64,000 bases of DNA, taken from contig CM038924.1 in assembly GCA_021904315.1 (NCBI GenBank), forward strand, positions 18,230,155 through 18,294,154, written 5' to 3'. The stretch comes from Sphagnum magellanicum (taxonomy: Eukaryota > Streptophyta > Sphagnopsida > Sphagnales > Sphagnaceae). Both the position numbers and the translations under genes were made by a program. Positions 6,461 through 64,000 of this stretch are shown piece after piece; within the stretch, counting starts at the first letter, position 1; every line of letters starts with the position of its first letter. The notes beneath the pieces are model-generated. The model was not told the DNA's origin. It ran no database searches and was given only the letters and a program-made list of their open reading frames with translations.

Positions 6461-6469
6461 GTTTGTAAT

Positions 6470-7745: not shown

Positions 7746-7749
7746 TACA

Positions 7750-9505: not shown

Positions 9506-12500
9506 ATATATGCAAGACCTTTAATTGCATCCATCACAAATGAAGTTTCTTTCCTCCCTAAGTTTTTATAATAATGACCTTCCACTACTTCATCTCCTTT
9601 CTCAAGTGAAGTTATAATCATTTGCCAATGGTTGGTCCCCTTTGTACATAAACAAACGTCTAACACACGTGAGAACCCAAAACAATGAATTTTCTTCATT
9701 CCCAACCTCTACACAAACAACAAAGTTACCCCCAACTTGTAATTCAAATGCAAGTTGGTTGTTGTTTGGACCTACCTCCCAATTTGTGTTATCATCATTA
9801 ACTTCCACCAACATATCAATACTGGAACATGGTTCCAGTGTTATTAATTGCCAAGACTTTACATGAGCTTGATTAGGACATACTCCAACCACATCATCGA
9901 CACAATGGCTGCATGAATAGTTGTAGTTTCAAACTTGGAGTAGGACATTCTTAGAATGGTTCACAAAACGAACAAAATGCATGCTACATGATCCAGAAAC
10001 TATTTTGCAACTATATTAGCATTGCCTATCCACTTCACCCACTTGGATCTCAATAAAGTTTCTAGCAACTTCTAGCCTTGCCCTCGGATATGTAGCATGG
10101 GCAATGTTCATGGCGATCTACAAAAGCTTGGTAACATTAGAAACATTGTGCATCTTTACACCGTTGGATCGCAATTGCTCAGTCCTGATGCATTGCTTGA
10201 AGCAAGCCTCGACACCATCATGGGGTCCCTTCCCATGACAAATGCCCCAATAGTGCCAATCAAGCATGCACTCACGTGGAAGTTCAGGGCAAGCTGTAAA
10301 AGAAAGGTATTTTACAATATAAATCCATGAGCGAAATCCCTTAAATTGGGCAGCACATCCATCATTCCAGATAATGTGGCACTTGGGATATATCTTTTGT
10401 CCACAAAGATGGGCCCAATGGAGGTTCAAGCTTTTCTGTACAAACAAATTATCATGTTTATGATCATCATTAATATAGTAAAAATACTAAGTTTGCAAGC
10501 ATTGGCTATGTTCATCTTTAAGGTCATAATTAGGGTTCACAATATACATAATATGGACTAGGATTGTGAGTTGAAAGTTAAACCAATGTTTTTCCTGCAC
10601 TTCATTTTGGCCTTTGAATGAATAGTTTTTGCAAAGTCAATCAATGACATAACCTCACCATCTCTCAACTATGTTAGACATAACTTGTATTAACTATCTT
10701 GCCATTGAGCAACATGATTGTGAAGGACAAATTCACATATCTTGGGTGTAGCATATGCTAAAAACATCCTAGGGTTAGCCCTTTTGTGCTCCAAATGAGT
10801 GACTTCTTTCAATTCACTATCTCTAGTTTTTTTAACAAATACTTTTTCAAACCTTCACCAATACACCAACCTGATGTTTGTGGGGTCTAACTCTCTGTCA
10901 CATAGTAGAATATTATGGAAGCCACAAAACGTGCATTCACCTTTCGCACAATTGAGTTTAAACCAAGGACTGCCTAGGGGCTTTGGACAAAGATACAATG
11001 ACCATAGGTCCATGTTCCTCTTGAATACATGGTTGATGCTTTAACAAGCAACAATACCTTGTACAACTTGGGAATTGCTAGTTGGTCTTATGCAAATTGA
11101 ATCACATAAGCAATTGCATGAAGGGTGGTCTTCACCATGGTGTACATTAATCGATCTCATGTTGTTGAAATCGTCCTTAATCTCAACCATCTCTTAGTGA
11201 TACTTGCAACAAGTGTTGAAGTCCTTCAACTTTTTCACAAAATAAAGCTTCAATTTGACAAATGATGCAAGCCCTATTTGCACATCTTCATGAACTGCCT
11301 TGAATCGAATGAAAAAATCAACTTGCATGAAACAATTCAATGGTGCAAGGAGTTGTTAGATACCTCAAACATGTAGTACAATGCAACATGGTTATAGAGA
11401 ATAAGTAGATTCATATTAAAATAGGCTTCTCAAAAGTCATTTTATTTCAGGATAGAAAAACTTTTAGGACTTGATCACCAAGGAACCTCTAGGAATTTAA
11501 ATTCCCAATGCATCTAAGAATCAACACATGCAAGAATTGACTACCTAGGACTAATAACCTATATTACAGTTTAGGAATTAAGCCATGTAGGATTAGACTA
11601 CCCAACATTTTAATAACCTATATTATACTCCAAGAATCAAGTTGTGCAGGACTAGCTACCTAGGACTTTTAATAACCTACATTATAATCTAGGAATCAAC
11701 CTAGATGCAGGACTATGTTACCAGGATTTCTAATAACTTACATTACAATCTACAAATCAATTTATATGTAGGATTATGCTACCCATGAGTTTTAATAACC
11801 TACATTATAGTCCATGAATCAACCTATATGCAAGACTATGCTACCTAGGACTTATAATAACTTATAATATAATCTAGGAATCAACCTAGATGCAGGACTA
11901 TGGTACCCAAGATTCTTAATAACCTACATTATAGTCTAGGAATCAACCTAGATGCAAGACTATGGTACCCAAGATTCTTAATAACCTACATTATAGTCTA
12001 GGAATCAACCCAATTATGCAAGATTAAGTCACCATGAAGGACTAACCAATGTAAGACATCTATTTACCTAGGACTATTGAAATAATCTAGGATTAAACCC
12101 AATGCAAAATTGCATTTGCCATCATCATATGCAAGACACTAAAAGAAAATACATGATTTATCATACTTGCACACTTATACATTTATAGTGCATGATTAAA
12201 TTCACATGGTCTTGATGTTTTCCACAATGCATTTGATAAGACCTTTAAGGACAGAAGCTAAGGAATTGACAAGATGAACATTCACACATCACACCAATGC
12301 TTCAATTCTAAACTACAACTTGTCACATGAACATAGATCAACTTAATGAATAGGAATGATTCAAATGATTTACCTCGTTCTCTTGTAGATAATGTTTTGC
12401 ATGCATCTCCTTCACATTTCTTACAATGAGGTTTGTAATAACCTTTTTATTGTTGGGTGACACCCTTTTATCATCTGTCCACCATTCTAAAACAACAATA

Positions 12501-13000
12501 ATAATTCTCTCTGGGAAAACATATTTCTAGCTACTTTGATTTCTAAAAGTTTCTTGTGTTGCATTATCTCCTAAAAGATCTTTTATTGAGACCCACACGT
12601 CTTCCAGCTATTCTTACACTCTTATTATCACATGCTGATACCACTGTAGTTTCTACAACATTTCGGGTTAAGTATTGGTCTTTCCCATTGCCATCCTTTA
12701 AATCATTCCAAACAAAAGCTAAACTATTACAAATTATAGCACATTCTTGCAATGTTTTGCGATTAATAACAAAATTTGGCATCACACCATTTAAGAATGG
12801 TTCACATACCAATTTTTCAAACACCTTCTTTTGGAATCTTTCACCCCTATAACTTATAGATGCATGTAACATGTGGTTCATCTTCTTTGCATATATTGTA
12901 ATAGCTCGATCAATGCTGGGATCATCTTCATGATCATCTTGCTCAGGCGCCTCTCGTACTTGTTTTTGTAATGTTTCTTCTCTCTCCTTTAACCTCAATT
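9484..13000 (-). pseudogene. HGKG-family transposase-like gene, broken (block B)
   Basis: On the minus strand, recognisable blocks lie in order. They are an N-terminal block around 12998-12564 (with FVWNDLKDGNGK and VRIAGRRVGLNKRSF), KEMHAKHYLQE near 12400, and FVKKLKDFNTCC near 11200. Further on come FVLHNHVAQWQD near 10720, HIIWNDGCAAQFKGFRSW and CHGKGPHDGVEACFKQ at 10447-10118, and a C-terminal part (NSLFWVLTCVRRLF, KGDEVVEGHYY) at 9892-9484. I recognise this as an uncharacterised multi-domain family in plants and animals with a WxDGCxxQFK and HGKGxxDG signature. The conserved Asp/His pattern suggests a transposase or RNase H-like fold, but that is inference. The frame is broken many times, and a tandem-repeat block (11540-12060) lies in the middle. 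It starts immediately after unit A1; the last codons overlap the A boundary. Confidence 0.65.
11540..12060. repeat. ~60 bp tandem repeat inside HGKG pseudogene
   Basis: About eight to nine degenerate units, each of the type taataacctacattatagtc followed by taggaatcaacctagatgca and ggactatgctacc. The best-preserved adjacent units are at 11880-12005. It lies between the N-terminal and central blocks of the pseudogene, so it is either an intron-borne array or an insertion. Confidence 0.8.
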
Positions 13001-13889
13001 TGTTGTTTCTTCGTATAATGGCACAATGAGCTTTTTATGTAGCCTCATGAACAAGTCTAATCTTTGTTCTTTCCCAATCTTGATGTTCATTACATGCATT
13101 GCCCATTTCCACAAAAATGCAAATACCTAACCAAAATCAACGACACCATACTCAAATGTTTTAAGAGCTTTGAATATTTGTATAATGTAAAAATAGTTCC
13201 CATAAAAATATGTGTTATTAGGATTTTCAAACTCAAATTGAGTTGGAAAAATAAGATCTCTATTAGCTTTCAACTTGTAGACATGTTGTAGTGCAAACTT
13301 CCATATATTATATATATTGCTACAGGACCTATTCTATAGTAGGGTTAAAATGAGTTACTATGGCCATTAAAAGATCAGTCTAATAGTTTCAAAGTAAACT
13401 TGATCCAAACCATTGCAAATACATGAACAAACCAGAAAATTGGTTGAAAACTCACAGTTACAGTTGGAAACCTCTCGATTAGGTATTTGTCATGCCAATG
13501 AAAAGAATTGACATCCACTAGCCATTATGTTGGCCATTCAATACACATCTCAAATAGATATTCCTACCATTTGTTCACATGTATAATCATCTTATTTGAT
13601 CAATTACATCAATAATGAACCCCAACCTATTCAAAATACAATTTGTCCCATGTGTATATCACATGGATGTAGCTCAATTCCAACATATTTAAGTAAACAT
13701 TTCTAACCTTTTGATCTGTCAAACCTCTCATGCTTCAAAATCCAATTTACTTTTGTTAACATGTAATGCAACTTTATTGGCTTGGCCCAACTTCCACTTT
13801 CTCTCCCTTTTTTCACATTATCTCCTACTTCATCAAATGTGTTCCTTTGTACAATACCATCCTATCATCTTTTGTATTGAATAATATCA
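13001..13889. other. No gene seen
   Basis: AT-rich sequence between the HGKG pseudogene and the acidic ORF. Short frames only. It could include 5' parts or introns of the HGKG gene, but no motif supports this. Confidence 0.4.
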
Positions 13890-14126
13890 TCATTTAATTG
13901 AAAATAAACCAACAACAAAAATGTGGGTCATAGGTTTCACTTCTTTTTCAACAGCTCTTCCTCTGAACTTTGTTTTAATTCCTCCATCCTCTATGATATC
14001 TTGTTTTTTTTCATTAACTACCTCTTCTTCAGTGCAACTCTTGCCATTAACTCCGTCTTCATCAGAACAATTTGCCATATAATGGTTAGACCCTCTTGGC
14101 CTTGATGATTCATTATCTCTTGGATC
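13890..14126 (-). CDS. Hypothetical acidic exon
   Basis: An open frame of about 78 codons follows a good splice-acceptor-like signal (complement reads tttttttacag), giving DPRDNESSRPRGSNHY then MANCSDEDGVNGKSCTEEEV and a basic GIKTKFRGRAVEKEV segment, and ending FSIK-stop. It is rich in Glu/Asp with a Lys/Arg patch and has no recognised domain. It could be an upstream exon of the HGKG-family gene on the same strand or an unrelated relic. The copy in the right arm is identical in translation. Functional status unknown. Confidence 0.3.
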   Translation of the reverse strand, partial: DPRDNESSRPRGSNHYMANCSDEDGVNGKSCTEEEVVNEKKQDIIEDGGIKTKFRGRAVEKEVKPMTHIFVVGLFSIK

Positions 14127-14752
14127 TGTAAAAAAATTGATGGTTCTTTCATAATTTCATTCCCTTCTAGTCTATTTGACACCACTTTTAGACACCATAA
14201 AGATCTCCTCCTCCATCTACTAAACTCCTTGTGTGTAGGGATTTTACTTATTCACGATGTACTATGGATCAAGAAACTTTTCATTTTGTTCATCCTGCAT
14301 CTCCAAAACAGGATAAGTTCTAGTGAGACATTCTAACAATATCTCTCTTTATCAACAATTTTAGCTTCATATAGCCCCAGGTTCTACCAACTTTAGGTCC
14401 TTCTACTCCATCAGTTCAGTGGCCTTCCATTAATCCTCCAAAGAAACATTCCCATCTCTTGCTCACTTCTACCAGATTAATCTTAATAAGTATAAGATCT
14501 TGTTGAAAACCATTTGTTGTTTTTTAACAACTCTTACCTATTTCCACTTGCCCTTCTATCTCTTCATGAACCTTAGAATTACTCCCTTCCTATCTTGAGC
14601 TACTAATAGCTACACATGACATTCAATTCTTTCCTCATTTTAGCAGTAATCAAACCCAAGCTCTTCACACACAAACAATCCATAGGGTAGAAATCATCAT
14701 AAAATTAAGGTTCTTCCAATAACTGCGCACATCATATATCCATTCAGTTTTC
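14127..14752. other. No gene seen
   Basis: Stretch without a convincing frame. It could be intron or 3' region of the ankyrin fragment. Confidence 0.4.
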
Positions 14753-15210
14753 CTAACTTCCTAAGGGAGCTAGCTGAATGTGCTCAAATTGAATGTTTGA
14801 ATTAGCAAGTTTAGTTTCTAGCAAGCTCAAAAATTGGGACCAGATGCATCTAGAAGGAATAAAGGAGTTTGTCAAATACCTTGGAAATAAAGAGATGATT
14901 TCAACTCCAATGCTAAGAGCAGTGCAATCTTTGGCCAAGAGTAATTATCCTGGTTTCCGACAAAATCTCTCCATGAGGTGACTTCTTGTCCTTGTGGACA
15001 ATTGAAATCTTGTGCGTTGATCGTGGAACTGCTACTTTAATGGACACATCACTGCCATTTTCAAGCAATATCTTTATTATCTCCAAACTTCGGCTCTTTT
15101 CGTACTTGTACACGGCCAAGTGCAGTGCTATCACACCCTACATACCAAAACTATTGTTAATCTCTGGCCTCCCTCCCAATTCACCTAGGTTATTTAAATC
15201 TTTCTCTCCT
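14753..15210 (-). pseudogene. Ankyrin-repeat protein fragment
   Basis: On the minus strand, GVIALHLAVYKYEKSRSLEI continues IKILLENGSDVSIKV. This fits one ankyrin repeat (G-TALHLA...LEIVKLLLENGADV) with a six-residue insertion, and a partial repeat-like ELGGRPEINNSFGM lies just upstream across a stop. Downstream, DKKSPHGEILSE and then, in another frame, AKDCTALSIGVEIISLF extend to 14753. A host ankyrin-repeat gene that has decayed, or one with short introns I cannot place, would both fit; interrupted frames favour decay. Confidence 0.5.
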
Positions 15211-15786
15211 TAGAACATGGCTCAAGCAATAGTTTGCAAAGACCTACAATAACCTCCTAATTTTGTCATCAAATCCTTGCCTTCGTGCCCTACGTTGTCG
15301 TCATCCATTTGTTTTTTTCAAACATTAACTGGATGTTAATTTCTTTCCTTTTTCTTAAATGATGGCCATAAATACTAACATAAAATTCACTTAAAAACTC
15401 CCCAATAACTTCTTTAGGTTTCAAATTTCTTTAGCATAACCATCACCCGAAAGGGAATGGTATCTGATATTGGTTCTTCATTACATTCACCCCCCAAGCA
15501 TCATATGTACACACACATTTGAACATATCACAAATCCAACAAGTAGGCGACAAAATCGATAAAAGAAATAATAACTTCCAATTATTTACAAAATGCGAGA
15601 TCTTCTTGGCTTCTAGAGAACAAAATAGAGAATCTCGATTCGTGTAGAAAGATGCGAGGGCCTATTTTTAAGAATTGGAAAATTCCGAGTGACTAGTCGC
15701 AACAACATTCAATCTCAACATAAGCAGAGACAAAACAAAGAAACACACACTCTCAACAAACAAATGATGAAAAATTTCCATCTTAC

Positions 15787-15849
15787 CTCATCATTGTAAA
15801 CATTCACATTAACCTTACGGTTCTTGATGGAGCATGTGAACGTTGTCAT
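15787..15849 (-). CDS. Candidate first exon upstream of ankyrin fragment
   Basis: A 21-codon frame starting ATG (MTTFTCSIKNRKVNVNVYND) ends exactly at a strong donor gag|gtaag. It lies about 600 bp upstream of the ankyrin fragment on the same strand and 80 bp downstream of a telo-box-like run. The combination looks like a real plant gene start, but linking it to the ankyrin segment is inference. Confidence 0.3.
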
Positions 15850-15927
15850 CTTTTACACAACGGAAGAACGTGGTTTGATTCAACTTCAGGTTATGGCGGG
15901 TTTAGTCAAAAAGCCCGACTTAGTCGA

Positions 15928-15950
15928 CCCTAAACCTAAACCCTAAACCA
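15928..15950. promoter_or_regulatory. Telo-box-like run (CCCTAAA units)
   Basis: The sequence ccctaaacctaaaccctaaa is a short run of plant telomere-type units. AAACCCTAA telo-boxes are known promoter elements of plant growth and translation genes. It lies just upstream of the candidate first exon on the minus strand. It is also compatible with a small interstitial telomeric scar. The right-arm copy is at about 58789-58811. Confidence 0.45.
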
Positions 15951-16338
15951 AGTCCTTGTGCATGATTTGCATCGCAACTGCAATTGCATATAATTCTCAT
16001 CACTTAGACTCATGCCTGCTGGTGGTGAAGGTGTTTGAGAATAACCCAATTTGCCAAATCAAGAGTGTGAGACCAGACATTCTGCTTGTACTTTCTCACA
16101 TTTGCGAACTAGCAAAGAAGCAAATTGATAATAAGGGCCAAGTGATTCGCTTATAGCCGTTCTGGCAGACAATAATGGCTCCTTAAATTATATGGTAAGC
16201 TTCCCATAGTCCCAAAAGCTTTTAGTGAAAAGTAGTTCTTGTACATTAGTAAGATGCCTAATGTGCGATGTCACATTTCAATGTATCTGATGTATTCGAC
16301 CTGAAGAAAGGATGTGTGAGACTGTGGTTGTAGTGGTG

Positions 16339-16833
16339 TCACAATGCAGTTGACAAAGCATGTCCATAAGATCCACAAGCAGTACTTGGCAATTCTGGCA
16401 TTGAAGATAAATGTAAAGGTAGGTTTTTGAGGGCATGGAATCCTTCACATTCACATTTGTGCATCATGTTTTGAGGCGTGGATAGAGTTGTCTTAAATGT
16501 TTTAGTGTCAGTAATGCCCTGGCTGTACGGAGATAATGGTTGCAGGAGAGTCTCTCCCTTCATATGGACCTCATAGACAACTAATTCCACGGTATTTGTT
16601 GACTGTTCATCTCCATTGCCATGGGCATAGGTTGGGGGACTGAATATGGTTTTGGTTAATGCACTGTCCAGAACAACCTCTGGTACTGAAATACGTACAA
16701 TCATCTTCGGTGTGGATGTCATACACCCACATTTGGGAGAGGACATGATTGTTGTGGTAAGGATGAGACCATTTTGCACCAAAATCCTTGTGGTCAATTT
16801 TTCTTGCGGACTCAAGTGCCTATTATTTCTCAA
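16339..16833 (-). CDS. Unidentified ORF next to repeat S1
   Basis: Open frame whose first ATG gives MSSPKCGCMTSTPKMIVRIS, continuing through a VVLDSALTKTIF and VELVVYEVHMKGETLLQPL region. No family recognised. It is the third gene-sized frame in the same orientation placed directly after a repeat S copy, in the position where a further lectin unit would sit, but it shows no lectin motif. Its 3' part differs in frame between the two arms because of a one-base difference in an A run (about 16413), so the true C-terminus is uncertain. Confidence 0.3.
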   Translation of the reverse strand: MRNNRHLSPQEKLTTRILVQNGLILTTTIMSSPKCGCMTSTPKMIVRISVPEVVLDSALTKTIFSPPTYAHGNGDEQSTNTVELVVYEVHMKGETLLQPLSPYSQGITDTKTFKTTLSTPQNMMHKCECEGFHALKNLPLHLSSMPELPSTACGSYGHALSTAL

Positions 16834-16859
16834 AGCAGGTTAAATATCAAATATCCAAA

Positions 16860-17715
16860 GTCAATTCTCTGGATATGATACTGTGATACTTTAGGTTTGC
16901 CCAGGTAGTTGCATCATGGGACTGGCCTGATGCATATCTGATGGTTATATAAATTGTTCATAACTTCCAAAATGCAACTCATAATTTTTTAGAAGTAAAG
17001 TAAAGCATTTCAGTTGTAAAAGTGGTTTTGAACTTTGATAGCAACATAATAATGAACATCTTATCAGAACAGAAACATAAGTGTTTAATTTGCCGACACT
17101 ATGAAACAAAATGTAAACGATGGCATCACAAAACTGGAAAATGTGATGTCAAATGCGTGAAATTAACAAGAGTAGATGATGTGGAATAAGTATTATAAAT
17201 GTCATTCATAATTGGTAATACTTTGTAGGGAAAAAATTCAGTAGTCTGTTGCAAAACTGATGTTGAATATTGGTTAACAATTGCAAGACGAGTCAAGGTG
17301 GTTATGAGTTGGAGGTGAGGCCTTGGTTACAATCCATGAGGCTAGGAATAATAAAGTGCTAAAAGAGATCCAAGTATGTGAACAGAGATATAACCAGCTG
17401 CCATCGCCCGGTCATGGCTCCGGTGTTGGTGATAAGTTCCTGCCCTGCTTTATTGAAATGAAACGTAGCACGACTGTGAATAAGGTGATTCCATAAGACA
17501 AGGGGATTGGAGTCTGGACAAAGCAAGGGAAGCAGGGATCTAACTAAGTCTTAACGACTCTAGGACTCAAGTGTGTGAAAACTTAACCAACTAATTTTTC
17601 TATGTGTATTTGAAGGCACCTCAAATTATTGATACAACCATTTTCCTAGCACTTAAGCATTTTACTGGTACTATTCATTTCCTCCCTGCTTGTCTTCATA
17701 CCATCATTTTAACAT
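16860..17715. repeat. Repeat S, copy 1
   Basis: About 0.85 kb that matches 19605-20435, starting around caattctctgg / ggtttgccca and ending near attcatttcctcc. It contains R copy 2 in its distal part. On the minus strand it lies just upstream of the unidentified ORF. Confidence 0.8.
17372..17565 (+). repeat. Dispersed repeat R, copy 2 (inside S1)
   Basis: Most diverged of the R copies (for example cctgccctgctttattg and cacgactgtgaataagg), embedded in the longer repeat S1. Confidence 0.75.
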
Positions 17716-18550
17716 TATAACTCTGATTGTACTGCCTAGATTTTGGAAATGTATTCGATCCAAGATTTTTAGAGGACTCTTCTATAAGTCTGAAGGTGTT
17801 ATGTGTAGGGTAAATACCTTGGCAGCAGGGTTTCTGGATTCATAACTGCACCTCACCCAAGCCCACATCCAGGTTTAGGGTTTAAGCATGTTGTCCAGGG
17901 CTTTACCAAGCAGGAAAGACCTGCTTCAATTTGTTTTTCAAGTTTTTTTGCCTACTGTACTCGGAGGCTACCCGCCAGGTATGATACCCACCCAGAGGGT
18001 ACCAATCAGGTATCTAGTATGAAAAGGAGGGCAGGCGATTTGAAAAACCAAACACCCGCCCTTGGCAAATGAAAAGTTACACTGAAAAAGGTGCCCTCGA
18101 AGTACAATAAATGATTTGGACCAGGTGTCATCACAGTGTGATATGACCCAAGACACATCAAGGGATTAGACCGAACAAATAAGTACAGGGAATTGAAATG
18201 CCATCCAGCTGATCAGTGGTTGATTTTTCCCCAATAAAAGTAGACTAAGTTATGACTAATATGGACAATCTTAGTCGTTTCCCTTGGTTCACCAAGGGCA
18301 CAGCTCCCCACCAGTGAATCAGTATTTCTCTTTCAAATTTTGTGATGCAGTTAAAATGGCCTTCATGCAGAGGAAAAAAAATCCAAATCTGGCTATATTC
18401 CAGATATGAAAGTTGGAAAAAAAGAGTAATGGATCCTTCTATATTCTTGGGTATCTACAGGAATCTCCTATAAAAAAGTCTAGCTACTTGTCAATAAAGA
18501 AAACTTCTTGAAAGCTGGCAAATTTGGGCCACTTTTTTCAGGGAGAATCA
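17716..18550. other. Spacer between S1 and lectin-2 3' flank
   Basis: No gene seen. A short stretch near 18380-18470 (aatctggctatattcc, ccttctatattcttgg) faintly resembles 2545-2640 in unit A. It differs from the corresponding spacer of the other lectin unit (20436-21215), so one or both were replaced after the tandem duplication. Confidence 0.5.
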
Positions 18551-18998
18551 TTGGTTGTTGTGATCACTGCAGCCTAATGGAAAGAGACTACTGTGGAGAA
18601 ACTGTCACGAGACTACCAACGAGGAAGTCATCAGCAAGAGATTCGAATAAATCACACGTTGGGAAGGGTTAAACTTTGCATCTACAAGGCAGCTTGCGAA
18701 TCCTTGAACGAGGTGGATATACAATCGCATATAGAATAAATATTTTATTATTGTCTTCTCACCACAACAACAATATATAGCCAAGTTCAACATCCTGACG
18801 CTTGTTCGATCCTGACGCTTGCCAACGCCTCAACTGTGTCACCATCAGATCACATCTCTCTAGTTGACGTGCCGTTGGCACTGTCATCCCAAAACCTTAA
18901 TGAACTGACAGTTAACTTATATTTGGAAAAATAACACCTGCTTGTGTAAAAGACCAGAGCACAACCAACACAAGCATGATCGAGGGAAAATGCCACAT

Positions 18999-19494
18999 TT
19001 AGTCGATGATGATTCTGACCCCGCGCAGGTTATCGGCTTCCGTGTAGAAGGAAACCTGGATATTGACCTTCGAAAGCTTGGTACTACGATTTGCGCTCGC
19101 ATCGTGCTTATTATTTTTGTCATTTTCACCGGTGTCGGAATTGTAGTATCTCGGGTGAACTATGGCGCCGGTGTCCTCAGCTATGGTGACAACATTCAAA
19201 TCGCACCAGCTGAAATCGTTGCGGTTGGACGCCGACAGCAAACAAGAAAGAATCTGACTTATAGCCCTCACTCTTGAACCGCAGCATGCTAGAGACGTGA
19301 CTGCCAGTCATAGTTAGGATCTGCTGATTGCCGTCGGCTTCACTCCAGAATCCGTCTTCCACGATGGTTTTCTCCACGATGCTGAAGGCGGGAGACCGTC
19401 CGCTCTGGATGACGCTCACATGGATCGTGGGAGAATCCGGAACCTTGTTGCGCTGATTGAACGACTGCAAAGCAGCTGGCTGCCTGGAAGCCAT
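18999..19494 (-). pseudogene. ABL-type (fungal fruit-body) lectin, decayed paralogue
   Basis: The start MASRQPAALQSFNQRNKVPD follows the same leader as the intact lectin (gaattttccatatggcttc). Blocks typical of the family are present: TIHVSV, FSIVEKTI, a GSHVSSMLRFKS segment matching the GSDVSGTLRFKG of the intact copy, then SWCDLNVV and HPRYY. The Gly of the SG-x-LRF motif, part of the galactose-type site in Agaricus bisporus lectin, is Ser here. The reading frame is interrupted about once, so the two halves lie in different frames. Length (about 165 codons) matches the intact copy. Its core promoter is missing, replaced by repeat S2. A poly(A)-type signal is retained at 18744-18749. Probably a pseudogene. 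Confidence 0.8.
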
Positions 19495-19604
19495 ATGGAA
19501 AATTCTATCAACAACAACGGATCGCCTGAGTGCTACAAGGGAGGCAGACGCGGAGAGCGGAGTTCGGAAAGCTACGAGGGAGTGAAACTTGATATCAAAT
19601 TTCT

Positions 19605-20435
19605 GTCGGCAATTCTCTGGGTAGGTTTGCCCAAATAGTTGCATCACAGGACTGGCCTGATGCGTATAATCAGGTTATAAATTGTTTATAACTTCCAAAA
19701 TGTGAATCATAATTCTTTGTTAGTAAAGTAAAACATTTCTGTACAGGTAAAAGTGGTCTTGAACTGTGGTAGCAACACAATAATGAAAATCTTATCATAA
19801 CCGAAACATAGGTGTTTAATTTGCTGACAATATGAAATAAAATGTACATGATGGCATCACAATACTGAAAATGTTTTGTCAAAGGTGTGAAATTAACAAG
19901 AGTAGATGGTGTGGAAACAACATTATAAATGTCATGCATAATTGATAATACTTTGTAGGAAAAAAATCAGTAATCTTTTGCAAAACTGATGTTGAATTCT
20001 GATTAACAACCACGAGATGAGTCCAGGTTGTTATGAGTTGGAGGTGAGGGCTTGGTTACAATCCATGAGAGGCTAGGAATAATAAAGTGCTAAATCAGAT
20101 CCAATTATGTGATGAGAGATGCAACTAGCCGCCATTGCTCAGTCATGGCTCAGGTGTTCGTGATAAATTCCTGCCCCACTTTATTGAAATGAAATGTGGC
20201 ATGACCATGGAAAAGGTGATTCCATAAGACAAGGGGTTTGGAGTCTGGACAAAGGATGGGAAGCAGGGATCTAACTAAGTCTTAATGACTTTAGGACTTA
20301 GTGTGTAAAAACTTAACCAGCTATATTTTCTCTTTGTATTTGAAGGCACCTCAAACTTGATATAATCTTTTTCCCAGAAGTTCAAGCATTTTACTTGTAC
20401 TATTCATTTCCTCCTTACTCACATTCATACCAGTG
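19605..20435. repeat. Repeat S, copy 2
   Basis: Second S copy, lying directly upstream (minus strand) of the lectin-2 leader and so occupying the place of its promoter. S copies are about 2.73 kb apart, matching the 2.70 kb spacing between the two lectin start codons, which shows that lectin plus S was duplicated as one tandem unit. Confidence 0.8.
20104..20290 (+). repeat. Dispersed repeat R, copy 3 (inside S2)
   Basis: Closer to the unit-A copies than copy 2 is. Lies within repeat S2. Confidence 0.75.
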
Positions 20436-21215
20436 GTTTTTTTTTCTTATTTTTATTTTTTATTTTACAGTTTTGTGCTTTGGAAAGTTCTGCTATTTTT
20501 AGAAAACATTTCGCATTTTTTTTTGGATTGTTTTACATTCAAAAAACGAGAAATTCCAAAATTTTCCAATTTTTGTTGTCGCCAAGCGACGAAAATTCCC
20601 CTTGAAAAACGTCTTGTGACGTTCTACATGATAACCAACACGTTCAAAATTTCCTACTTACTTCGCTGATCACTCAAGAAAGGGGAGGCGCCGAGCAATT
20701 GGCCAAATGGCCTCTTTCAGGGGCACCCACCTTGCGCCCTTTTTACTAGGTATTTAATACAATGGCCCTTAATCTCGACCCTTCATTACAAATGGAGGAG
20801 AAGGGGAAATACAACAATGAAGCCCATAGTTATAGCAGACCGTGTTGAGCTAGGTTCAAGGAGCAGCTCATGAATAAGGACATTATTCCATTAGGATTCT
20901 GTGATCACGGCAACTTTCCATCAAGTTTTCTCAATTAGATGTGCTCACAGTCGTCTGACAGCTCTACCAGCCAAGCATTGACTAATTGCAGGAGCTGTGA
21001 GAGCTATTAATCAAACTGTGACTCACCATGCAGTGACATATTTCCCTTTATCCATGAGACCAGGTGTTCTCCGAGTTCCTAAAATGATTAATTACGTATT
21101 TTCCAAGACATCTGCAGCTCCCCAATGGAAAGCGCCTGTCCTTGCAACAAGAACAAGGTCCTATGTCAGTGGTTTTTTCCGTTACGTTGTTATGATTGCA
21201 GCACAGTGTGTGTAA
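20436..21215. other. Spacer between S2 and lectin-1 3' flank
   Basis: No gene seen. T-rich start (20441-20470), a short palindromic cgtcgcttggcgac element near 20579, and a more GC-rich tail. Unrelated to 17716-18550. Confidence 0.5.
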
Positions 21216-52205: not shown

Positions 52206-52368
52206 CAAAACGGTACTTGCTCTGATCCCATGTTCGGCCACGCGGGATGCACTGCTGATCGAATATGTACTAACAAGAAAAAGGTGTGCTGATGAATTCA
52301 TCCTAGATTCATCCGGAGAATGAATTTTCTGGCCATTCAGATCCGTCATTCGTTCCTTCCCCGGGGCC

Positions 52369-52376
52369 TATATATT
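52369..52376 (+). promoter_or_regulatory. TATA box of intact lectin, right arm
   Basis: Copy of 22363-22370 in the opposite orientation, 168 bp before the ATG at 52544. Confidence 0.7.
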
Positions 52377-52543
52377 CGCGCTCCCACCAACAGTTTTCTC
52401 CATTCTCAGCTCTCATCGCTCAGCGCGTCCTGCCCGTTGCGTCTCACTCCCTCGTAGATTTCCGAAATCGGCGAACTCCGCTCTCCGCGTCTGCCCCCCT
52501 TGTAGCACTCAGGTGATCCGTTGTTGTTCACAGAATTTTCCAT

Positions 52544-53035: not shown

Positions 53036-54302
53036 CAGTTTCACTCGGTGATTCTTACGTTGATTGCCCTCTGGTGTTTCACACCTTCGTTCACATAATA
53101 TAAGTTGTTTTACTTGTGGAATGTAGCCAGCAGGTGGTGTTTGTCCAAATAGTTAAATATCAGTTTGTAAAGGTTTTGGGGCAGCAGTACTGCCGGTACG
53201 TAAACTAGAGAGAAGTCTGATAGTGACACGGTCCAGGACTTGGCAAGTGTCACGATGGAACAAGTGTTGTGTTCAACTCGTCTATATATTATTGCTGTTG
53301 TGAAGAGCTCGATCATCGAGAGATAATAATAAAATATATATTATACAAGTGTGATTGTATATCTACGTTTTCCAAGGATACGCCTTGTTGCTTTGTAGGT
53401 GCAAAGTTTGACCCTTGCAGTAGTGTGTGATTTATTTGAATCTCTTGCTGATGACTTCCTCATTGCAGGTCTGCTGACAGATTCTCCTTAGGGTTTCTTT
53501 CCATTAAGCTGCTCTGATCACAGTTACACACACTGTGCTGCAATCATAACAACGTAACGGAAAAACCACTGACATAGGACCTTGTTCTTGTTGCAAGGAC
53601 AGGCGCTTTCCATTGGGGAGCTGCAGATGTCTTGGAAAATACGTAATTAATCATTTTAGGAACTCGGAGAACACCTGGTCTCATGGATAAAGGGAAATAT
53701 GTCACTGCATGGTGAGTCACAGTTTGATTAATAGCTCTCACAGCTCCTGCAATTAGTCAATGCTTGGCTGGTAGAGCTGTCAGACGACTGTGAGCACATC
53801 TAATTGAGAAAACTTGATGGAAAGTTGCCGTGATCACAGAATCCTAATGGAATAATGTCCTTATTCATGAGCTGCTCCTTGAACCTAGCTCAACACGGTC
53901 TGCTATAACTATGGGCTTCATTGTTGTATTTCCCCTTCTCCTCCATTTGTAATGAAGGGTCGAGATTAAGGGCCATTGTATTAAATACCTAGTAAAAAGG
54001 GCGCAAGGTGGGTGCCCCTGAAAGAGGCCATTTGGCCAATTGCTCGGCGCCTCCCCTTTCTTGAGTGATCAGCGAAGTAAGTAGGAAATTTTGAACGTGT
54101 TGGTTATCATGTAGAACGTCACAAGACGTTTTTCAAGGGGAATTTTCGTCGCTTGGCGACAACAAAAATTGGAAAATTTTGGAATTTCTCGTTTTTTGAA
54201 TGTAAAACAATCCAAAAAAAAATGCGAAATGTTTTCTAAAAATAGCAGAACTTTCCAAAGCACAAAACTGTAAAATAAAAAATAAAAATAAGAAAAAAAA
54301 AC

Positions 54303-55133
54303 CACTGGTATGAATGTGAGTAAGGAGGAAATGAATAGTACAAGTAAAATGCTTGAACTTCTGGGAAAAAGATTATATCAAGTTTGAGGTGCCTTCAAAT
54401 ACAAAGAGAAAATATAGCTGGTTAAGTTTTTACACACTAAGTCCTAAAGTCATTAAGACTTAGTTAGATCCCTGCTTCCCATCCTTTGTCCAGACTCCAA
54501 ACCCCTTGTCTTATGGAATCACCTTTTCCATGGTCATGCCACATTTCATTTCAATAAAGTGGGGCAGGAATTTATCACGAACACCTGAGCCATGACTGAG
54601 CAATGGCGGCTAGTTGCATCTCTCATCACATAATTGGATCTGATTTAGCACTTTATTATTCCTAGCCTCTCATGGATTGTAACCAAGCCCTCACCTCCAA
54701 CTCATAACAACCTGGACTCATCTCGTGGTTGTTAATCAGAATTCAACATCAGTTTTGCAAAAGATTACTGATTTTTTTCCTACAAAGTATTATCAATTAT
54801 GCATGACATTTATAATGTTGTTTCCACACCATCTACTCTTGTTAATTTCACACCTTTGACAAAACATTTTCAGTATTGTGATGCCATCATGTACATTTTA
54901 TTTCATATTGTCAGCAAATTAAACACCTATGTTTCGGTTATGATAAGATTTTCATTATTGTGTTGCTACCACAGTTCAAGACCACTTTTACCTGTACAGA
55001 AATGTTTTACTTTACTAACAAAGAATTATGATTCACATTTTGGAAGTTATAAACAATTTATAACCTGATTATACGCATCAGGCCAGTCCTGTGATGCAAC
55101 TATTTGGGCAAACCTACCCAGAGAATTGCCGAC
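54303..55133. repeat. Repeat S, copy 2, right arm
   Basis: Reverse complement of 19605-20435. Confidence 0.8.
54448..54634 (-). repeat. Dispersed repeat R, right-arm copy within S2'
   Basis: Reverse complement of copy 3. Confidence 0.75.
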
Positions 55134-55243
55134 AGAAATTTGATATCAAGTTTCACTCCCTCGTAGCTTTCCGAACTCCGCTCTCCGCGTCTGCCTCCCT
55201 TGTAGCACTCAGGCGATCCGTTGTTGTTGATAGAATTTTCCAT

Positions 55244-55740
55244 ATGGCTTCCAGGCAGCCAGCTGCTTTGCAGTCGTTCAATCAGCGCAACAAGGTTCCG
55301 GATTCTCCCACGATCCATGTGAGCGTCATCCAGAGCGGACGGTCTCCCGCCTTCAGCATCGTGGAGAAAACCATCGTGGAAGACGGATTCTGGAGTGAAG
55401 CCGACGGCAATCAGCAGATCCTAACTATGACTGGCAGTCACGTCTCTAGCATGCTGCGGTTCAAGAGTGAGGGCTATAAGTCAGATTCTTTCTTGTTTGC
55501 TGTCGGCGTCCAACCGCAACGATTTCAGCTGGTGCGATTTGAATGTTGTCACCATAGCTGAGGACACCGGCGCCATAGTTCACCCGAGATACTACAATTC
55601 CGACACCGGTGAAAATGACAAAAATAATAAGCACGATGCGAGCGCAAATCGTAGTACCAAGCTTTCGAAGGTCAATATCCAGGTTTCCTTCTACACGGAA
55701 GCCGATAACCTGCGCGGGGGTCAGAATCATCATCGACTAA
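55244..55740 (+). pseudogene. ABL-type lectin, decayed paralogue, right-arm copy
   Basis: Reverse-complement copy of 18999-19494, broken in the same way. The predicted 3' end differs slightly between arms, making its C-terminus uncertain. Confidence 0.75.
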
Positions 55741-57023
55741 ATGTGGCATTTTCCCTCGATCATGCTTGTGTTGGTTGTGCTCTGGTCTTTTACACAAGCA
55801 GGTGTTATTTTTCCAAATATAAGTTAACTGTCAGTTCATTAAGGTTTTGGGATGACAGTGCCAACGGCACGTCAACTAGAGAGATGTGATCTGATGGTGA
55901 CACAGTTGAGGCGTTGGCAAGCGTCAGGATCGAACAAGCGTCAGGATGTTGAACTTGGCTATATATTGTTGTTGTGGTGAGAAGACAATAATAAAATATT
56001 TATTCTATATGCGATTGTATATCCACCTCGTTCAAGGATTCGCAAGCTGCCTTGTAGATGCAAAGTTTAACCCTTCCCAACGTGTGATTTATTCGAATCT
56101 CTTGCTGATGACTTCCTCGTTGGTAGTCTCGTGACAGTTTCTCCACAGTAGTCTCTTTCCATTAGGCTGCAGTGATCACAACAACCAATGATTCTCCCTG
56201 AAAAAAGTGGCCCAAATTTGCCAGCTTTCAAGAAGTTTTCTTTATTGACAAGTAGCTAGACTTTTTTATAGGAGATTCCTGTAGATACCCAAGAATATAG
56301 AAGGATCCATTACTCTTTTTTTCCAACTTTCATATCTGGAATATAGCCAGATTTGGATTTTTTTTCCTCTGCATGAAGGCCATTTTAACTGCATCACAAA
56401 ATTTGAAAGAGAAATACTGATTCACTGGTGGGGAGCTGTGCCCTTGGTGAACCAAGGGAAACGACTAAGATTGTCCATATTAGTCATAACTTAGTCTACT
56501 TTTATTGGGGAAAAATCAACCACTGATCAGCTGGATGGCATTTCAATTCCCTGTACTTATTTGTTCGGTCTAATCCCTTGATGTGTCTTGGGTCATATCA
56601 CACTGTGATGACACCTGGTCCAAATCATTTATTGTACTTCGAGGGCACCTTTTTCAGTGTAACTTTTCATTTGCCAAGGGCGGGTGTTTGGTTTTTCAAA
56701 TCGCCTGCCCTCCTTTTCATACTAGATACCTGATTGGTACCCTCTGGGTGGGGTATCATACCTGGCGGGTAGCCTCCGAGTACAGTAGGCAAAAAAACTT
56801 GAAAAACAAATTGAAGCAGGTCTTTCCTGCTTGGTAAAGCCCTGGACAACATGCTTAAACCCTAAACCTGGATGTGGGCTTGGGTGAGGTGCAGTTATGA
56901 ATCCAGAAACCCTGCTGCCAAGGTATTTACCCTACACATAACACCTTCAGACTTATAGAAGAGTCCTCTAAAAATCTTGGATCGAATACATTTCCAAAAT
57001 CTAGGCAGTACAATCAGAGTTAT

Positions 57024-57880
57024 AATGTTAAAATGATGGTATGAAGACAAGCAGGGAGGAAATGAATAGTACCAGTAAAATGCTTAAGTGCTAGGAAAAT
57101 GGTTGTATCAATAATTTGAGGTGCCTTCAAATACACATAGAAAAATTAGTTGGTTAAGTTTTCACACACTTGAGTCCTAGAGTCGTTAAGACTTAGTTAG
57201 ATCCCTGCTTCCCTTGCTTTGTCCAGACTCCAATCCCCTTGTCTTATGGAATCACCTTATTCACAGTCGTGCTACGTTTCATTTCAATAAAGCAGGGCAG
57301 GAACTTATCACCAACACCGGAGCCATGACCGGGCGATGGCAGCTGGTTATATCTCTGTTCACATACTTGGATCTCTTTTAGCACTTTATTATTCCTAGCC
57401 TCATGGATTGTAACCAAGGCCTCACCTCCAACTCATAACCACCTTGACTCGTCTTGCAATTGTTAACCAATATTCAACATCAGTTTTGCAACAGACTACT
57501 GAATTTTTTCCCTACAAAGTATTACCAATTATGAATGACATTTATAATACTTATTCCACATCATCTACTCTTGTTAATTTCACGCATTTGACATCACATT
57601 TTCCAGTTTTGTGATGCCATCGTTTACATTTTGTTTCATAGTGTCGGCAAATTAAACACTTATGTTTCTGTTCTGATAAGATGTTCATTATTATGTTGCT
57701 ATCAAAGTTCAAAACCACTTTTACAACTGAAATGCTTTACTTTACTTCTAAAAAATTATGAGTTGCATTTTGGAAGTTATGAACAATTTATATAACCATC
57801 AGATATGCATCAGGCCAGTCCCATGATGCAACTACCTGGGCAAACCTAAAGTATCACAGTATCATATCCAGAGAATTGAC
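57024..57880. repeat. Repeat S, copy 1, right arm
   Basis: Reverse complement of 16860-17715. Confidence 0.8.
57174..57367 (-). repeat. Dispersed repeat R, right-arm copy within S1'
   Basis: Reverse complement of copy 2. Confidence 0.75.
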
Positions 57881-57906
57881 TTTGGATATTTGATATTTAA
57901 CCTGCT

Positions 57907-58461
57907 TTGAGAAATAATAGGCACTTGAGTCCGCAAGAAAAATTGACCACAAGGATTTTGGTGCAAAATGGTCTCATCCTTACCACAACAATCATGTCCT
58001 CTCCCAAATGTGGGTGTATGACATCCACACCGAAGATGATTGTACGTATTTCAGTACCAGAGGTTGTTCTGGACAGTGCATTAACCAAAACCATATTCAG
58101 TCCCCCAACCTATGCCCATGGCAATGGAGATGAACAGTCAACAAATACCGTGGAATTAGTTGTCTATGAGGTCCATATGAAGGGAGAGACTCTCCTGCAA
58201 CCATTATCTCCGTACAGCCAGGGCATTACTGACACTAAAACATTTAAGACAACTCTATCCACGCCTCAAAACATGATGCACAAATGTGAATGTGAAGGAT
58301 TCCATGCCCTCAAAAACCTACCTTTACATTATCTTCAATGCCAGAATTGCCAAGTACTGCTTGTGGATCTTATGGACATGCTTTGTCAACTGCATTGTGA
58401 CACCACTACAACCACAGTCTCACACATCCTTTCTTCAGGTCGAATACATCAGATACATTGA
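57907..58461 (+). CDS. Unidentified ORF, right-arm copy
   Basis: Same ORF in the right arm, with its first ATG at 57994. It stays open to 58461 because of the one-base difference in the A run. An overlapping frame (58286-58468) has a hydrophobic stretch YCLWILWTCFVNCIV that could be a membrane segment. Function unknown. Confidence 0.3.
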   Translation: MRNNRHLSPQEKLTTRILVQNGLILTTTIMSSPKCGCMTSTPKMIVRISVPEVVLDSALTKTIFSPPTYAHGNGDEQSTNTVELVVYEVHMKGETLLQPLSPYSQGITDTKTFKTTLSTPQNMMHKCECEGFHALKNLPLHYLQCQNCQVLLVDLMDMLCQLHCDTTTTTVSHILSSGRIHQIH

Positions 58462-58889
58462 AATGTGACATCGCACATTAGGCATCTTACTAATGTACAA
58501 GAACTACTTTTCACTAAAAGCTTTTGGGACTATGGGAAGCTTACCATATAATTTAAGGAGCCATTATTGTCTGCCAGAACGGCTATAAGCGAATCACTTG
58601 GCCCTTATTATCAATTTGCTTCTTTGCTAGTTCGCAAATGTGAGAAAGTACAAGCAGAATGTCTGGTCTCACACTCTTGATTTGGCAAATTGGGTTATTC
58701 TCAAACACCTTCACCACCAGCAGGCATGAGTCTAAGTGATGAGAATTATATGCAATTGCAGTTGCGATGCAAATCATGCACAAGGACTTGGTTTAGGGTT
58801 TAGGTTTAGGGTCGACTAAGTCGGGCTTTTTGACTAAACCCGCCATAACCTGAAGTTGAATCAAACCACGTTCTTCCGTTGTGTAAAAG

Positions 58890-58952
58890 ATGACAACGTT
58901 CACATGCTCCATCAAGAACCGTAAGGTTAATGTGAATGTTTACAATGATGAG
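58890..58952 (+). CDS. Candidate first exon, right-arm copy
   Basis: Reverse-complement copy of 15787-15849, with donor GT at 58953-58954. Confidence 0.3.
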
Positions 58953-59524
58953 GTAAGATGGAAATTTTTCATCATTGTTTGTTGAGAGTGTGTGTTTCTT
59001 TGTTTTGTCTCTGCTTATGTTGAGATTGAATGTTGTTGCGACTAGTCACTCGGAATTTTCCAATTCTTAAAAATAGGCCCTCGCATCTTTCTACACGAAT
59101 CGAGATTCTCTATTTTGTTCTCTAGAAGCCAAGAAGATCTCGCATTTTGTAAATAATTGGAAGTTATTATTTCTTTTATCGATTTTGTCGCCTACTTGTT
59201 GGATTTGTGATATGTTCAAATGTGTGTGTACATATGATGCTTGGGGGGTGAATGTAATGAAGAACCAATATCAGATACCATTCCCTTTCGGGTGATGGTT
59301 ATGCTAAAGAAATTTGAAACCTAAAGAAGTTATTAGGGAGTTTTTAAGTGAATTTTATGTTAGTATTTATGGCCATCATTTAAGAAAAAGGAAAGAAATT
59401 AACATCCAGTTAATGTTTGAAAAAAACAAATGGATGACGACAACGTAGGGCACGAAGGCAAGGATTTGATGACAAAATTAGGAGGTTATTGTAGGTCTTT
59501 GCAAACTATTGCTTGAGCCATGTT

Positions 59525-59985
59525 CTAAGGAGAGAAAGATTTAAATAACCTAGGTGAATTGGGAGGGAGGCCAGAGATTAACAATAGTTTTGGTATGTAG
59601 GGTGTGATAGCACTGCACTTGGCCGTGTACAAGTACGAAAAGAGCCGAAGTTTGGAGATAATAAAGATATTGCTTGAAAATGGCAGTGATGTGTCCATTA
59701 AAGTAGCAGTTCCACGATCAACGCACAAGATTTCAATTGTCCACAAGGACAAGAAGTCACCTCATGGAGAGATTTTGTCGGAAACCAGGATAATTACTCT
59801 TGGCCAAAGATTGCACTGCTCTTAGCATTGGAGTTGAAATCATCTCTTTATTTCCAAGGTATTTGACAAACTCCTTTATTCCTTCTAGATGCATCTGGTC
59901 CCAATTTTTGAGCTTGCTAGAAACTAAACTTGCTAATTCAAACATTCAATTTGAGCACATTCAGCTAGCTCCCTTAGGAAGTTAG
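59525..59985 (+). pseudogene. Ankyrin-repeat fragment, right-arm copy
   Basis: Reverse-complement copy of the ankyrin fragment; the ankyrin segment is at 59604-59705. Confidence 0.5.
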
Positions 59986-60610
59986 GAAAACTGAATGGAT
60001 ATATGATGTGCGCAGTTATTGGAAGAACCTTAATTTATGATGATTTCTACCCTATGGATTGTTTGTGTGTGAAGAGCTTGGGTTTGATTACTGCTAAAAT
60101 GAGGAAAGAATTGAATGTCATGTGTAGCTATTAGTAGCTCAAGATAGGAAGGGAGTAATTCTAAGGTTCATGAAGAGATAGAAGGGCAAGTGGAAATAGG
60201 TAAGAGTTGTTAAAAAACAACAAATGGTTTTCAACAAGATCTTATACTTATTAAGATTAATCTGGTAGAAGTGAGCAAGAGATGGGAATGTTTCTTTGGA
60301 GGATTAATGGAAGGCCACTGAACTGATGGAGTAGAAGGACCTAAAGTTGGTAGAACCTGGGGCTATATGAAGCTAAAATTGTTGATAAAGAGAGATATTG
60401 TTAGAATGTCTCACTAGAACTTATCCTGTTTTGGAGATGCAGGATGAACAAAATGAAAAGTTTCTTGATCCATAGTACATCGTGAATAAGTAAAATCCCT
60501 ACACACAAGGAGTTTAGTAGATGGAGGAGGAGATCTTTATGGTGTCTAAAAGTGGTGTCAAATAGACTAGAAGGGAATGAAATTATGAAAGAACCATCAA
60601 TTTTTTTACA

Positions 60611-60847
60611 GATCCAAGAGATAATGAATCATCAAGGCCAAGAGGGTCTAACCATTATATGGCAAATTGTTCTGATGAAGACGGAGTTAATGGCAAGAGT
60701 TGCACTGAAGAAGAGGTAGTTAATGAAAAAAAACAAGATATCATAGAGGATGGAGGAATTAAAACAAAGTTCAGAGGAAGAGCTGTTGAAAAAGAAGTGA
60801 AACCTATGACCCACATTTTTGTTGTTGGTTTATTTTCAATTAAATGA
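60611..60847 (+). CDS. Hypothetical acidic exon, right-arm copy
   Basis: Reverse-complement copy of 13890-14126, with the same acceptor-like tttttttacag at 60601-60611. Confidence 0.3.
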   Translation, partial: DPRDNESSRPRGSNHYMANCSDEDGVNGKSCTEEEVVNEKKQDIIEDGGIKTKFRGRAVEKEVKPMTHIFVVGLFSIK

Positions 60848-61699
60848 TGATATTATTCAATACAAAAGATGATAGGATGGTATTGTACAAAGGAACACAT
60901 TTGATGAAGTAGGAGATAATGTGAAAAAAGGGAGAGAAAGTGGAAGTTGGGCCAAGCCAATAAAGTTGCATTACATGTTAACAAAAGTAAATTGGATTTT
61001 GAAGCATGAGAGGTTTGACAGATCAAAAGGTTAGAAATGTTTACTTAAATATGTTGGAATTGAGCTACATCCATGTGATATACACATGGGACAAATTGTA
61101 TTTGAATAGGTTGGGGTTCATTATTGATGTAATTGATCAAATAAGATGATTATACATGTGAACAAATGGTAGGAATATCTATTTGAGATGTGTATTGAAT
61201 GGCCAACATAATGGCTAGTGGATGTCAATTCTTTTCATTGGCATGACAAATACCTAATCGAGAGGTTTCCAACTGTAACTGTGAGTTTTCAACCAATTTT
61301 CTGGTTTGTTTCATGTATTTGCAATGGTTGGATCAAGTTTACTTTGAAACTATTAGACTGATCTTTTAATGGCCATAGTAACTCATTTTAACCCTACTAT
61401 AGAATAGGTCCTGTAGCAATATATATAATATATGGAAGTTTGCACTACAACATGTCTACAAGTTGAAAGCTAATAGAGATCTTATTTTTCCAACTCAATT
61501 TGAGTTTGAAAATCCTAATAACACATATTTTTATGGGAACTATTTTTACATTATACAAATATTCAAAGCTCTTAAAACATTTGAGTATGGTGTCGTTGAT
61601 TTTGGTTAGGTATTTGCATTTTTGTGGAAATGGGCAATGCATGTAATGAACATCAAGATTGGGAAAGAACAAAGATTAGACTTGTTCATGAGGCTACAT

Positions 61700-64000
61700 A
61701 AAAAGCTCATTGTGCCATTATACGAAGAAACAACAAATTGAGGTTAAAGGAGAGAGAAGAAACATTACAAAAACAAGTACGAGAGGCGCCTGAGCAAGAT
61801 GATCATGAAGATGATCCCAGCATTGATCGAGCTATTACAATATATGCAAAGAAGATGAACCACATGTTACATGCATCTATAAGTTATAGGGGTGAAAGAT
61901 TCCAAAAGAAGGTGTTTGAAAAATTGGTATGTGAACCATTCTTAAATGGTGTGATGCCAAATTTTGTTATTAATCGCAAAACATTGCAAGAATGTGCTAT
62001 AATTTGTAATAGTTTAGCTTTTGTTTGGAATGATTTAAAGGATGGCAATGGAAAGACCAATACTTAACCCGAAATGTTGTAGAAACTACAGTGGTATCAG
62101 CATGTGATAATAAGAGTGTAAGAATAGCTGGAAGACGTGTGGGTCTCAATAAAAGATCTTTTAGGAGATAATGCAACACAAGAAACTTTTAGAAATCAAA
62201 GTAGCTAGAAATATGTTTTCCCAGAGAGAATTATTATTGTTGTTTTAGAATGGGTGGACAGATGATAAAGGGTGTCACCCAACAATAAAAGGTTATTACA
62301 AACCTCATTGTAAGAAATGTGAAGGAGATGCATGCAAAACATTATCTACAAGAACGAGGTAAATCATTTGAATCATTCCTATTCATTAAGTTGATCTATG
62401 TTCATGTGACAAGTTGTAGTTTAGAATTGAAGCATTGGTGTGATGTGTGAATGTTCATCTTGTCAATTCCTTAGCTTCTGTCCTTAAAGGTCTTATCAAA
62501 TGCATTGTGGAAACATCAAGACCATGTGAATTTAATCATGCACTATAAATGTATAAGTGTGCAAGTATGATAAATCATGTATTTTCTTTTAGTGGTCTTG
62601 GCATATGATGATGGCAAATGCAATTTTGCATTGGGTTAATTAATCCTAGATTATTTCAATAGTCCTAGGTAAATAGATGTCTTACATTGGTTAGTCCTTC
62701 ATGGTGACTTAATCTTGCATAATTTGGGTTTGATTCCTAGACTATAATGTAGGTTATTAAGAATCTTGGGTACCATAGTCTTGCCATCTAGGTTGATTCC
62801 TAGACTATAATGTAGGTTATTAAGAATCTTGGGTACCATAGTCCTGCATCTAGGTTGATTCCTAGATTATATTATAAGTTATTATAAGTCCTAGGTAGCA
62901 TAGTCTTGCATATAGGTTGATTCATGGACTATAATGTAGGTTATTAAAACTCATGGGTAGCATAATCCTACATATAAATTGATTTGTAGATTGGTAATGT
63001 AAGTTATTAGAAATCCTGGTAACATAGTCCTGGCATCTAGGTTGATTCCTAGATTATAATGTAGGTTATTAAAAGTCCTAGGTAGCTAGTCCTGCCAAAC
63101 TTGATTCTTGGAGTATAATATAGGTTATTAAAATGTTGGGTAGTCTAATCCTACATGGCTTAATTCCTAAACTGTAATATAGGTTATTAGTCCTAGGTAG
63201 TCAATTCCTTGCATGTGTTGATTCTTAGATGCATTGGGAATTTAAAATTCCTAGAGGTTCCTTGGGGATCAAGTCCTAAAAGTTTTTCTATCCTGAAATA
63301 AATGACTTTTGAGAAGCCTATTTTAATATGAATCTACTTATTCTCTATAACCATGTTGCATTGTACTACATGTTTGAGGTATCTAACAACTCCTTGCACC
63401 ATTGAATTGTTTCATGCAAGTTGATTTTTTCATTCGATTCAAGGCAGTTCAATGAAGATGTGCAAATAGGGCTTGCATCATTTGTCAAATTGAAGCTTTA
63501 TTTTGTGAAAAAGTTGAAGGACTTCAACACTTGTTGCAAGTATCACTAAGAGATGGTTGAGATTAAGGACGATTTCAACAACATGAGATCGATTAATGTA
63601 CACCATGGTGAAGACCCCACCCTTCATGCAATTGCTTATGTGATTCAATTTGCATAAGACCAACTAGCAATTTCCCAAGTTGTACAAGGTATTGTTGCTT
63701 GTTAAAGCATCAACCATGTATTCAAGAGGAACATGGACCTATGGTCATTGTATCTTTGTCCAAAGCCCCTAGGCAGTCCTTGGTTTTAAACTCAATTGTG
63801 CGAAAGGTGAATGCACGTTTTGTGGCTTCCATAATATTCTACTATGTGACAGAGAGTTAGACCCCACAAACATCAGGTTGGTGTATTGGTGAAGGTTTGA
63901 AAAAGTATTTGTTAAAAAAACTAGAGATAGTGAATTGAAAGAAGTCACTCATTTGGAGCACAAAAGGGCTAACCCTAGGATGTTTTTAGCATATGCTACA
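61700..64000 (+). pseudogene. HGKG-family gene, right-arm copy, cut by window end
   Basis: Reverse-complement copy of the block-B pseudogene. The N-terminal block is at 61738-62067, KEMHAKHYLQE near 62320, the tandem-repeat block at 62690-63215, the KKLKDFNTCCKYH block near 63510-63550, and a CAKGECTFCG-type block near 63800. The HGKG part would lie beyond base 64000. Small length differences from the left arm are frequent here, so frames in this copy are less trustworthy. Confidence 0.6.
62690..63215. repeat. ~60 bp tandem repeat, right-arm copy
   Basis: Reverse complement of 11540-12060, with numerous single-base insertions relative to the left arm (for example tcctggcat against tcctgcat). 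Confidence 0.8.

Follow-up and report, generated by a model that had tools for sequence, protein, structure and literature searches.

A near-perfect palindrome with arms of at least 23 kb in a Sphagnum magellanicum contig: recent inverted duplication or assembly artefact?

Does a palindrome found in an assembled contig of Sphagnum magellanicum belong to the genome of the plant, or did it arise during library preparation and assembly? The question is raised by a stretch of 64,000 nucleotides (GenBank assembly GCA_021904315.1, contig CM038924.1, positions 18,230,155 to 18,294,154), hereafter the window, which is numbered from its first base and is free of N. An earlier note on this DNA had claimed a giant near-perfect palindrome, and self-comparison of the window bears the claim out: the left arm (10747-33826) pairs in inverted orientation with the right arm (40914-64000), around a spacer of 7.1 kb, in a single match of 23,101 columns with 99.82% identity, 7 mismatches and 30 gap openings. 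The arms are at least 23 kb long, since the window ends at their outer limit (10747/64000). Shuffling the window 20 times with dinucleotides preserved yielded no inverted match longer than 47 columns, which excludes a chance origin. Taken together, self-comparison and shuffles describe a large palindrome, with long reverse-complement arms of high identity and a shorter spacer between them. A plastid inverted repeat was considered and rejected: rRNA and tRNA genes are expected in such a repeat, and the window contains no tRNA gene and no Rfam match at the gathering threshold.

We propose, with a probability of about one half, that the palindrome is real and stems from a very recent inverted segmental duplication in the nuclear genome of the plant, and we lean slightly towards this reading over that of an artefact. 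The spacer carries several exon-like frames, termed gene X, and a paralogue, X', straddles the border between left flank and left arm (Table 1). In the proposed scenario, a block of at least 23 kb, containing part of gene X', a lectin gene cluster and the inner part of the arm (segment A), would have been copied in inverted orientation onto the far side of gene X, possibly by template switching or break repair. Gene X would thereby have been left in the spacer, and the join between spacer and right arm would exist in the plant. The likeness of the arms would reflect the youth of the copy, and most of the differences between them would have arisen as consensus errors towards the outer end of the right arm, beyond the reach of reads anchored in the spacer.

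The window also contains a third copy of part of the arm. Positions 1-9506, called here the pre-arm, are a direct repeat of 24392-34774, in two blocks of 98.2% and 96.9% identity. This match is still running at the left end of the window, and on the other side it extends 948 bases beyond the inner edge of the palindrome at 33826, into the spacer. The pre-arm and the left arm differ by 157 substitutions (102 transitions and 55 transversions) and 17 gaps, a count that excludes a block of about 920 bases present in both arms and absent from the pre-arm. The pre-arm is more diverged: the left arm resembles the right arm more closely than it does the pre-arm. Pre-arm and left arm differ at 127 sites within 8,490 gap-free columns; the right arm sides with the left arm at 126 of these and with the pre-arm at one. 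A misjoin onto a sequence of the pre-arm type was rejected on the strength of these sites and of the 920-base block, which the right arm also carries.

The left inner junction, 33826/33827, recurs in the pre-arm at 8558/8559 and, being attested twice, is ordinary sequence. On the spacer side of 40913, the self-comparison of the window revealed no such second copy. Because the pre-arm copy already supports the left junction, the claim of a palindrome hinges on the right one, 40913/40914. A minus-strand frame of 80 codons (41046-40807) spans this right junction and continues for 36 codons beyond it, and the stretches that follow, in the direction of gene X, look exon-like by eye. In the left arm and in the pre-arm, the same frame meets a stop at most 4 codons beyond the edge. 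The frame may give a weak hint as to which side is ancestral. If this were the right side, the likeness of the left and right arms would need gene conversion.

This raises the question of the nature of the differences between the arms. They number 37, namely 7 substitutions and 30 gaps. All 30 gaps are of 1-3 bases, 26 of them of a single base, and they mainly change the length of a run by one. From the outer to the inner end, the density of differences is 12.0, 2.0, 1.0, 0.4, 0.6 and 0.0 per kb, and the positions of all 37 depart from uniformity (Kolmogorov-Smirnov test, p = 2e-13). The outer 2 kb holds 24 of them, the arms differ by only 3 substitutions over the inner 20 kb, and the 5 kb beside the inner junction shows no difference, with 5,451 exact bases there. 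The divergence between pre-arm and left arm was used as an internal control for the natural pattern of change at the locus. The ratio of substitutions to gaps is 157:17 in this control and 7:30 between the arms (Fisher p = 6e-18). Because the mix departs from the control, most of the arm differences look like consensus errors; errors aside, the arms would be almost one sequence. Gene conversion decaying naturally outward was rejected as the cause of the gradient, the type of difference being unlike the pre-arm divergence. Polarity can be assigned for few of the 37 differences. The context of a 62-base repeat array places the errors at 11709 and 11955 in the right arm, and an open frame does so at 12687. 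Right-arm errors are less sure at 19023 (from the lectin frame) and at 28375 (from counts of 4 versus 2 in a minisatellite context). At 26614 the pre-arm and the right arm agree, the left arm alone differs, and the change is assigned to the left arm. The frame at 16412 is longer in the right arm (186 versus 166 codons), which speaks against a right-arm error there, and the substitution at 15403 stands at the edge of a C run. The consensus of the right arm probably worsens with distance from the spacer.

Youth of the copy, gene conversion and an artefact all predict near-identical arms. A credible alternative, to which we would give somewhat less than even odds, is that a chimeric molecule, arising for example in whole-genome amplification or ligation, crossed from 40913 onto the other strand at 33826 and that the contig then retraced the left arm; the right arm would be absent from the plant. 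During whole-genome amplification, a 3' end that has been displaced can prime on a strand nearby and so produce a chimera, which could leave a spacer. The error-like character of the arm differences, their heaping at one end and the fact that, where polarised, they mainly spoil the right arm are in agreement with such an origin. Artificial inverted repeats are reported both from amplified PacBio DNA, where inverted chimeras occur and the inverted duplications of an assembly were gone after read correction (PMC6218980), and from nanopore ligation libraries, in 0.18-7.33% of reads (PMC13141652). Like the present palindrome, the artificial ones described from long reads combine a near-perfect inverted copy with one-sided, error-like differences (PMC6218980, PMC13141652, PMC12870357). 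However, simple fold-backs lack a gene-bearing loop of 7 kb. Fold-back reads, in the definition used for Breakinator, switch strand and return within 200 bases; their reported frequency is about 0.55-0.6% in nanopore genomic DNA, with virtually none in the PacBio HiFi data examined there, and one such read with a middle sequence of about 2 kb that remained unmapped is described (PMC12870357). Here, the turn spans 7,087 bases of unique spacer, and a simple fold-back read was rejected as the whole explanation. The artefact alternative raised in the earlier note is thus weakened by the gene-bearing spacer. Moreover, a single chimeric read would have to be polished unevenly to be exact over 5,451 bases by the junction yet carry 12 differences per kb at the far end, and the inner arms contain the substitutions at 15403 and 26614. 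A real duplication is favoured by the spacer, which has a multi-exon-like gene of its own with a paralogue in the left flank. From the exact sequence by the junction and the outward rise of the differences, we infer several reads anchored in the spacer and thinning out; a single unpolished chimeric read should be evenly poor, unlike the gradient seen here. The agreement of the right arm with the left arm at 126 of the 127 sites, its 920-base block and the few substitutions in its good part (26614 and 15403) point the same way. So does the proneness of the locus to duplication, as seen in the pre-arm and in a direct repeat of 818 columns at 85% identity. The continuation of the minus-strand frame through the right junction adds a weak argument.

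Several observations nevertheless weigh against a real duplication. The junction 40913/40914 has no second witness, and with no more than 7 substitutions, 3 of them in the inner 20 kb, the two arms may be one sequence counted twice. The polarised errors lie mainly in the right arm, as expected for a poorly supported tail. Uneven polishing towards the end of a contig could produce the gradient of differences as well; for the 10 differences that lie inward of the outer 3 kb, taken alone, the gradient is not significant (Kolmogorov-Smirnov p = 0.17). The frame at the junction shows no sign of selection, its pre-arm copy has an internal stop, and two of the three frames are open immediately inside the right junction. 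The same frame underlies another explanation, which we regard as improbable: an old palindrome in which gene conversion between the arms has maintained their likeness, and which may lie on a sex chromosome, a link that the earlier note had offered as speculation. In that case the ancestral side would be the right one, with X running into the arm, and the left copies and the pre-arm would be derived, cut at 33826; conversion would have removed the left-right divergence as far as the homology reaches, whereas the pre-arm went on drifting. This would account for the observation that the edge at 33826 and the next 948 bases are common to pre-arm and left arm, although the left arm is nearer to the right arm, and also for a frame that is open across the right junction but ends within 4 codons in the other two copies. 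The layout of pre-arm, arm, spacer and arm is also reminiscent of the willow W palindrome (PMC7023750). However, a single short frame with no sign of selection carries the polarity, the same pattern follows from a recent copy whose breakpoint fell there by chance, and the left arm compared with the pre-arm shows no GC shift (53 versus 48 changes), hence no signal of GC-biased conversion. Gene conversion does not appear to be required, because the 3 substitutions in the inner 20 kb fit youth or an artefact equally well. The fuller version, in which a haploid-dominant plant has a real palindrome with arms converted to the exact edge of homology and an unconverted pre-arm that keeps the older state, seems to us less probable still. 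Membership in the class of sex-chromosome palindromes requires both sex linkage and conversion.

Palindromes have been noted on plant and animal sex chromosomes (review, PMC8000587). In a narrow search of the open literature, no bryophyte palindrome was named in the titles or abstract openings listed. In Salix purpurea, the arms of palindrome W.P1 measure 20,071 and 19,550 bases and its pre-arm 12,070 bases, and the spacer is given as 3,586 bases in a table and as 2.6 kb in the text (PMC7023750). W.P1 and W.P2 resemble the present locus in their arms of about 20 kb, their kb-scale spacer and a mean arm identity above 99%, as well as in the additional 12 kb pre-arm located upstream, which copies part of the arm (PMC7023750). 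In contrast, S. purpurea is a flowering plant and its palindromes contain different genes (PMC7023750); their reality and conversion are backed by read depth, female specificity and cross-species sites, whereas the present case is argued from the sequence of the window. In yeast, the template-switching model of origin-dependent inverted-repeat amplification (ODIRA) likewise puts a long block next to its own inverted copy (PMC10766183). Examining the homology at the joints would need the sequence from before the duplication.

The earlier note had also stated that the arms carry duplicated intact lectin genes. This holds for one frame, which is open and identical in translation in both arms; a second lectin-like gene is frame-shifted within its domain in both arms, and the arms differ again near its end. 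Both genes exceed the curated cut-off of PF07367 (25 bits), with 60.6 and 37.2 bits, respectively. Among the matches listed for the open frame (7 distinct sequences), the best solved chain is 1x99_A (E = 1.7e-10). A PF07367 lectin domain has been reported from a liverwort (PMC12890914), so that its presence here is compatible with a bryophyte. A direct repeat of 818 columns and 85% identity (16892-17703 and 19622-20432) adjoins the lectin genes, which indicates that the cluster has local duplications of its own. Elsewhere in the arms, an array of about 7.5 tandem copies of a 62-base unit occupies 11552-12010, with its right copy at 62730-63189. On the minus strand of segment A, the fragment 30178-30396 scores below the threshold for DDE_Tnp_4 (20.2 bits against a cut-off of 24.8) and is perhaps a transposase remnant. 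A short minus-strand frame at 14916-15137 has one ankyrin repeat match barely over the cut-off (22 versus 21.1 bits).

Genes X and X' are divergent paralogues of multi-exon-like appearance, each located just beyond a copy of segment A. Pieces of X (37553-38984) and X' (9671-10944), both on the minus strand, share 29-41% amino-acid identity. A Pfam scan of 8 X or X' frames, among 20 window frames scanned in all, gave no match above cut-off for these genes, and a comparison of one 93-residue piece of gene X with viral contigs gave 4 pattern matches, none of them confirmed. A degenerate minisatellite of TTTAGCC-like units, with periods of 15, 30 and 45 bases, lies in the spacer at 35386-36040.

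Table 1. Coordinates of the palindrome, its third copy and the genes described in the text, numbered from the first base of the window.
Feature	Position	Strand	Basis or remark
Pre-arm, direct copy of inner left arm and 948 bases of spacer	1..9506	+	Direct self-match, two blocks
Gene X', paralogue of X, left flank into left arm	9671..13034	-	9671-10944 by similarity; open-frame exon 12564-13034 by eye
Left arm of palindrome	10747..33826	+	Inverted self-match with 40914-64000; outer end is a minimum
Second lectin-like gene, frame change inside domain	18999..19674	-	PF07367 E = 3.5e-9; right copy ~55064-55750
Lectin frame, fungal fruit body lectin domain, open	21704..22222	-	PF07367 E = 2e-16
Block of ~920 bases with 52-base GC-rich minisatellite	28194..29113	+	In both arms, absent from pre-arm (self-comparison, repeat scan)
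Spacer of 7,087 bases; minus-strand gene X and TTTAGCC-rich minisatellite	33827..40913	.	Self-comparison
Gene X, several exon-like frames, in spacer	37403..40452	-	37553-38984 backed by paralogue; 39988-40452 and beyond by eye
Right inner junction, sole inner junction without second copy	40913..40914	.	Self-comparison
Right arm of palindrome	40914..64000	-	Inverted self-match with left arm; outer end cut by window end
Lectin frame, right-arm copy, open	52517..53035	+	Translation identical to left-arm copy
Right-arm outer end, dense run-length differences (24/37)	61991..64000	-	Arm alignment

Whether the palindrome is real or artificial, the question reduces to junction 40913/40914. If the right arm is an artefact, it inflates gene counts and the contig is due to be cut at 40914. 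Should the doubtful case of conversion be true, the locus, perhaps situated on a U or V chromosome, would contain its own clock for conversion between the arms. If the duplication is real, the lectin cluster has been doubled, and a young, large inverted duplication standing beside a more diverged third copy would make this locus a convenient one for following palindrome formation and conversion in a plant.
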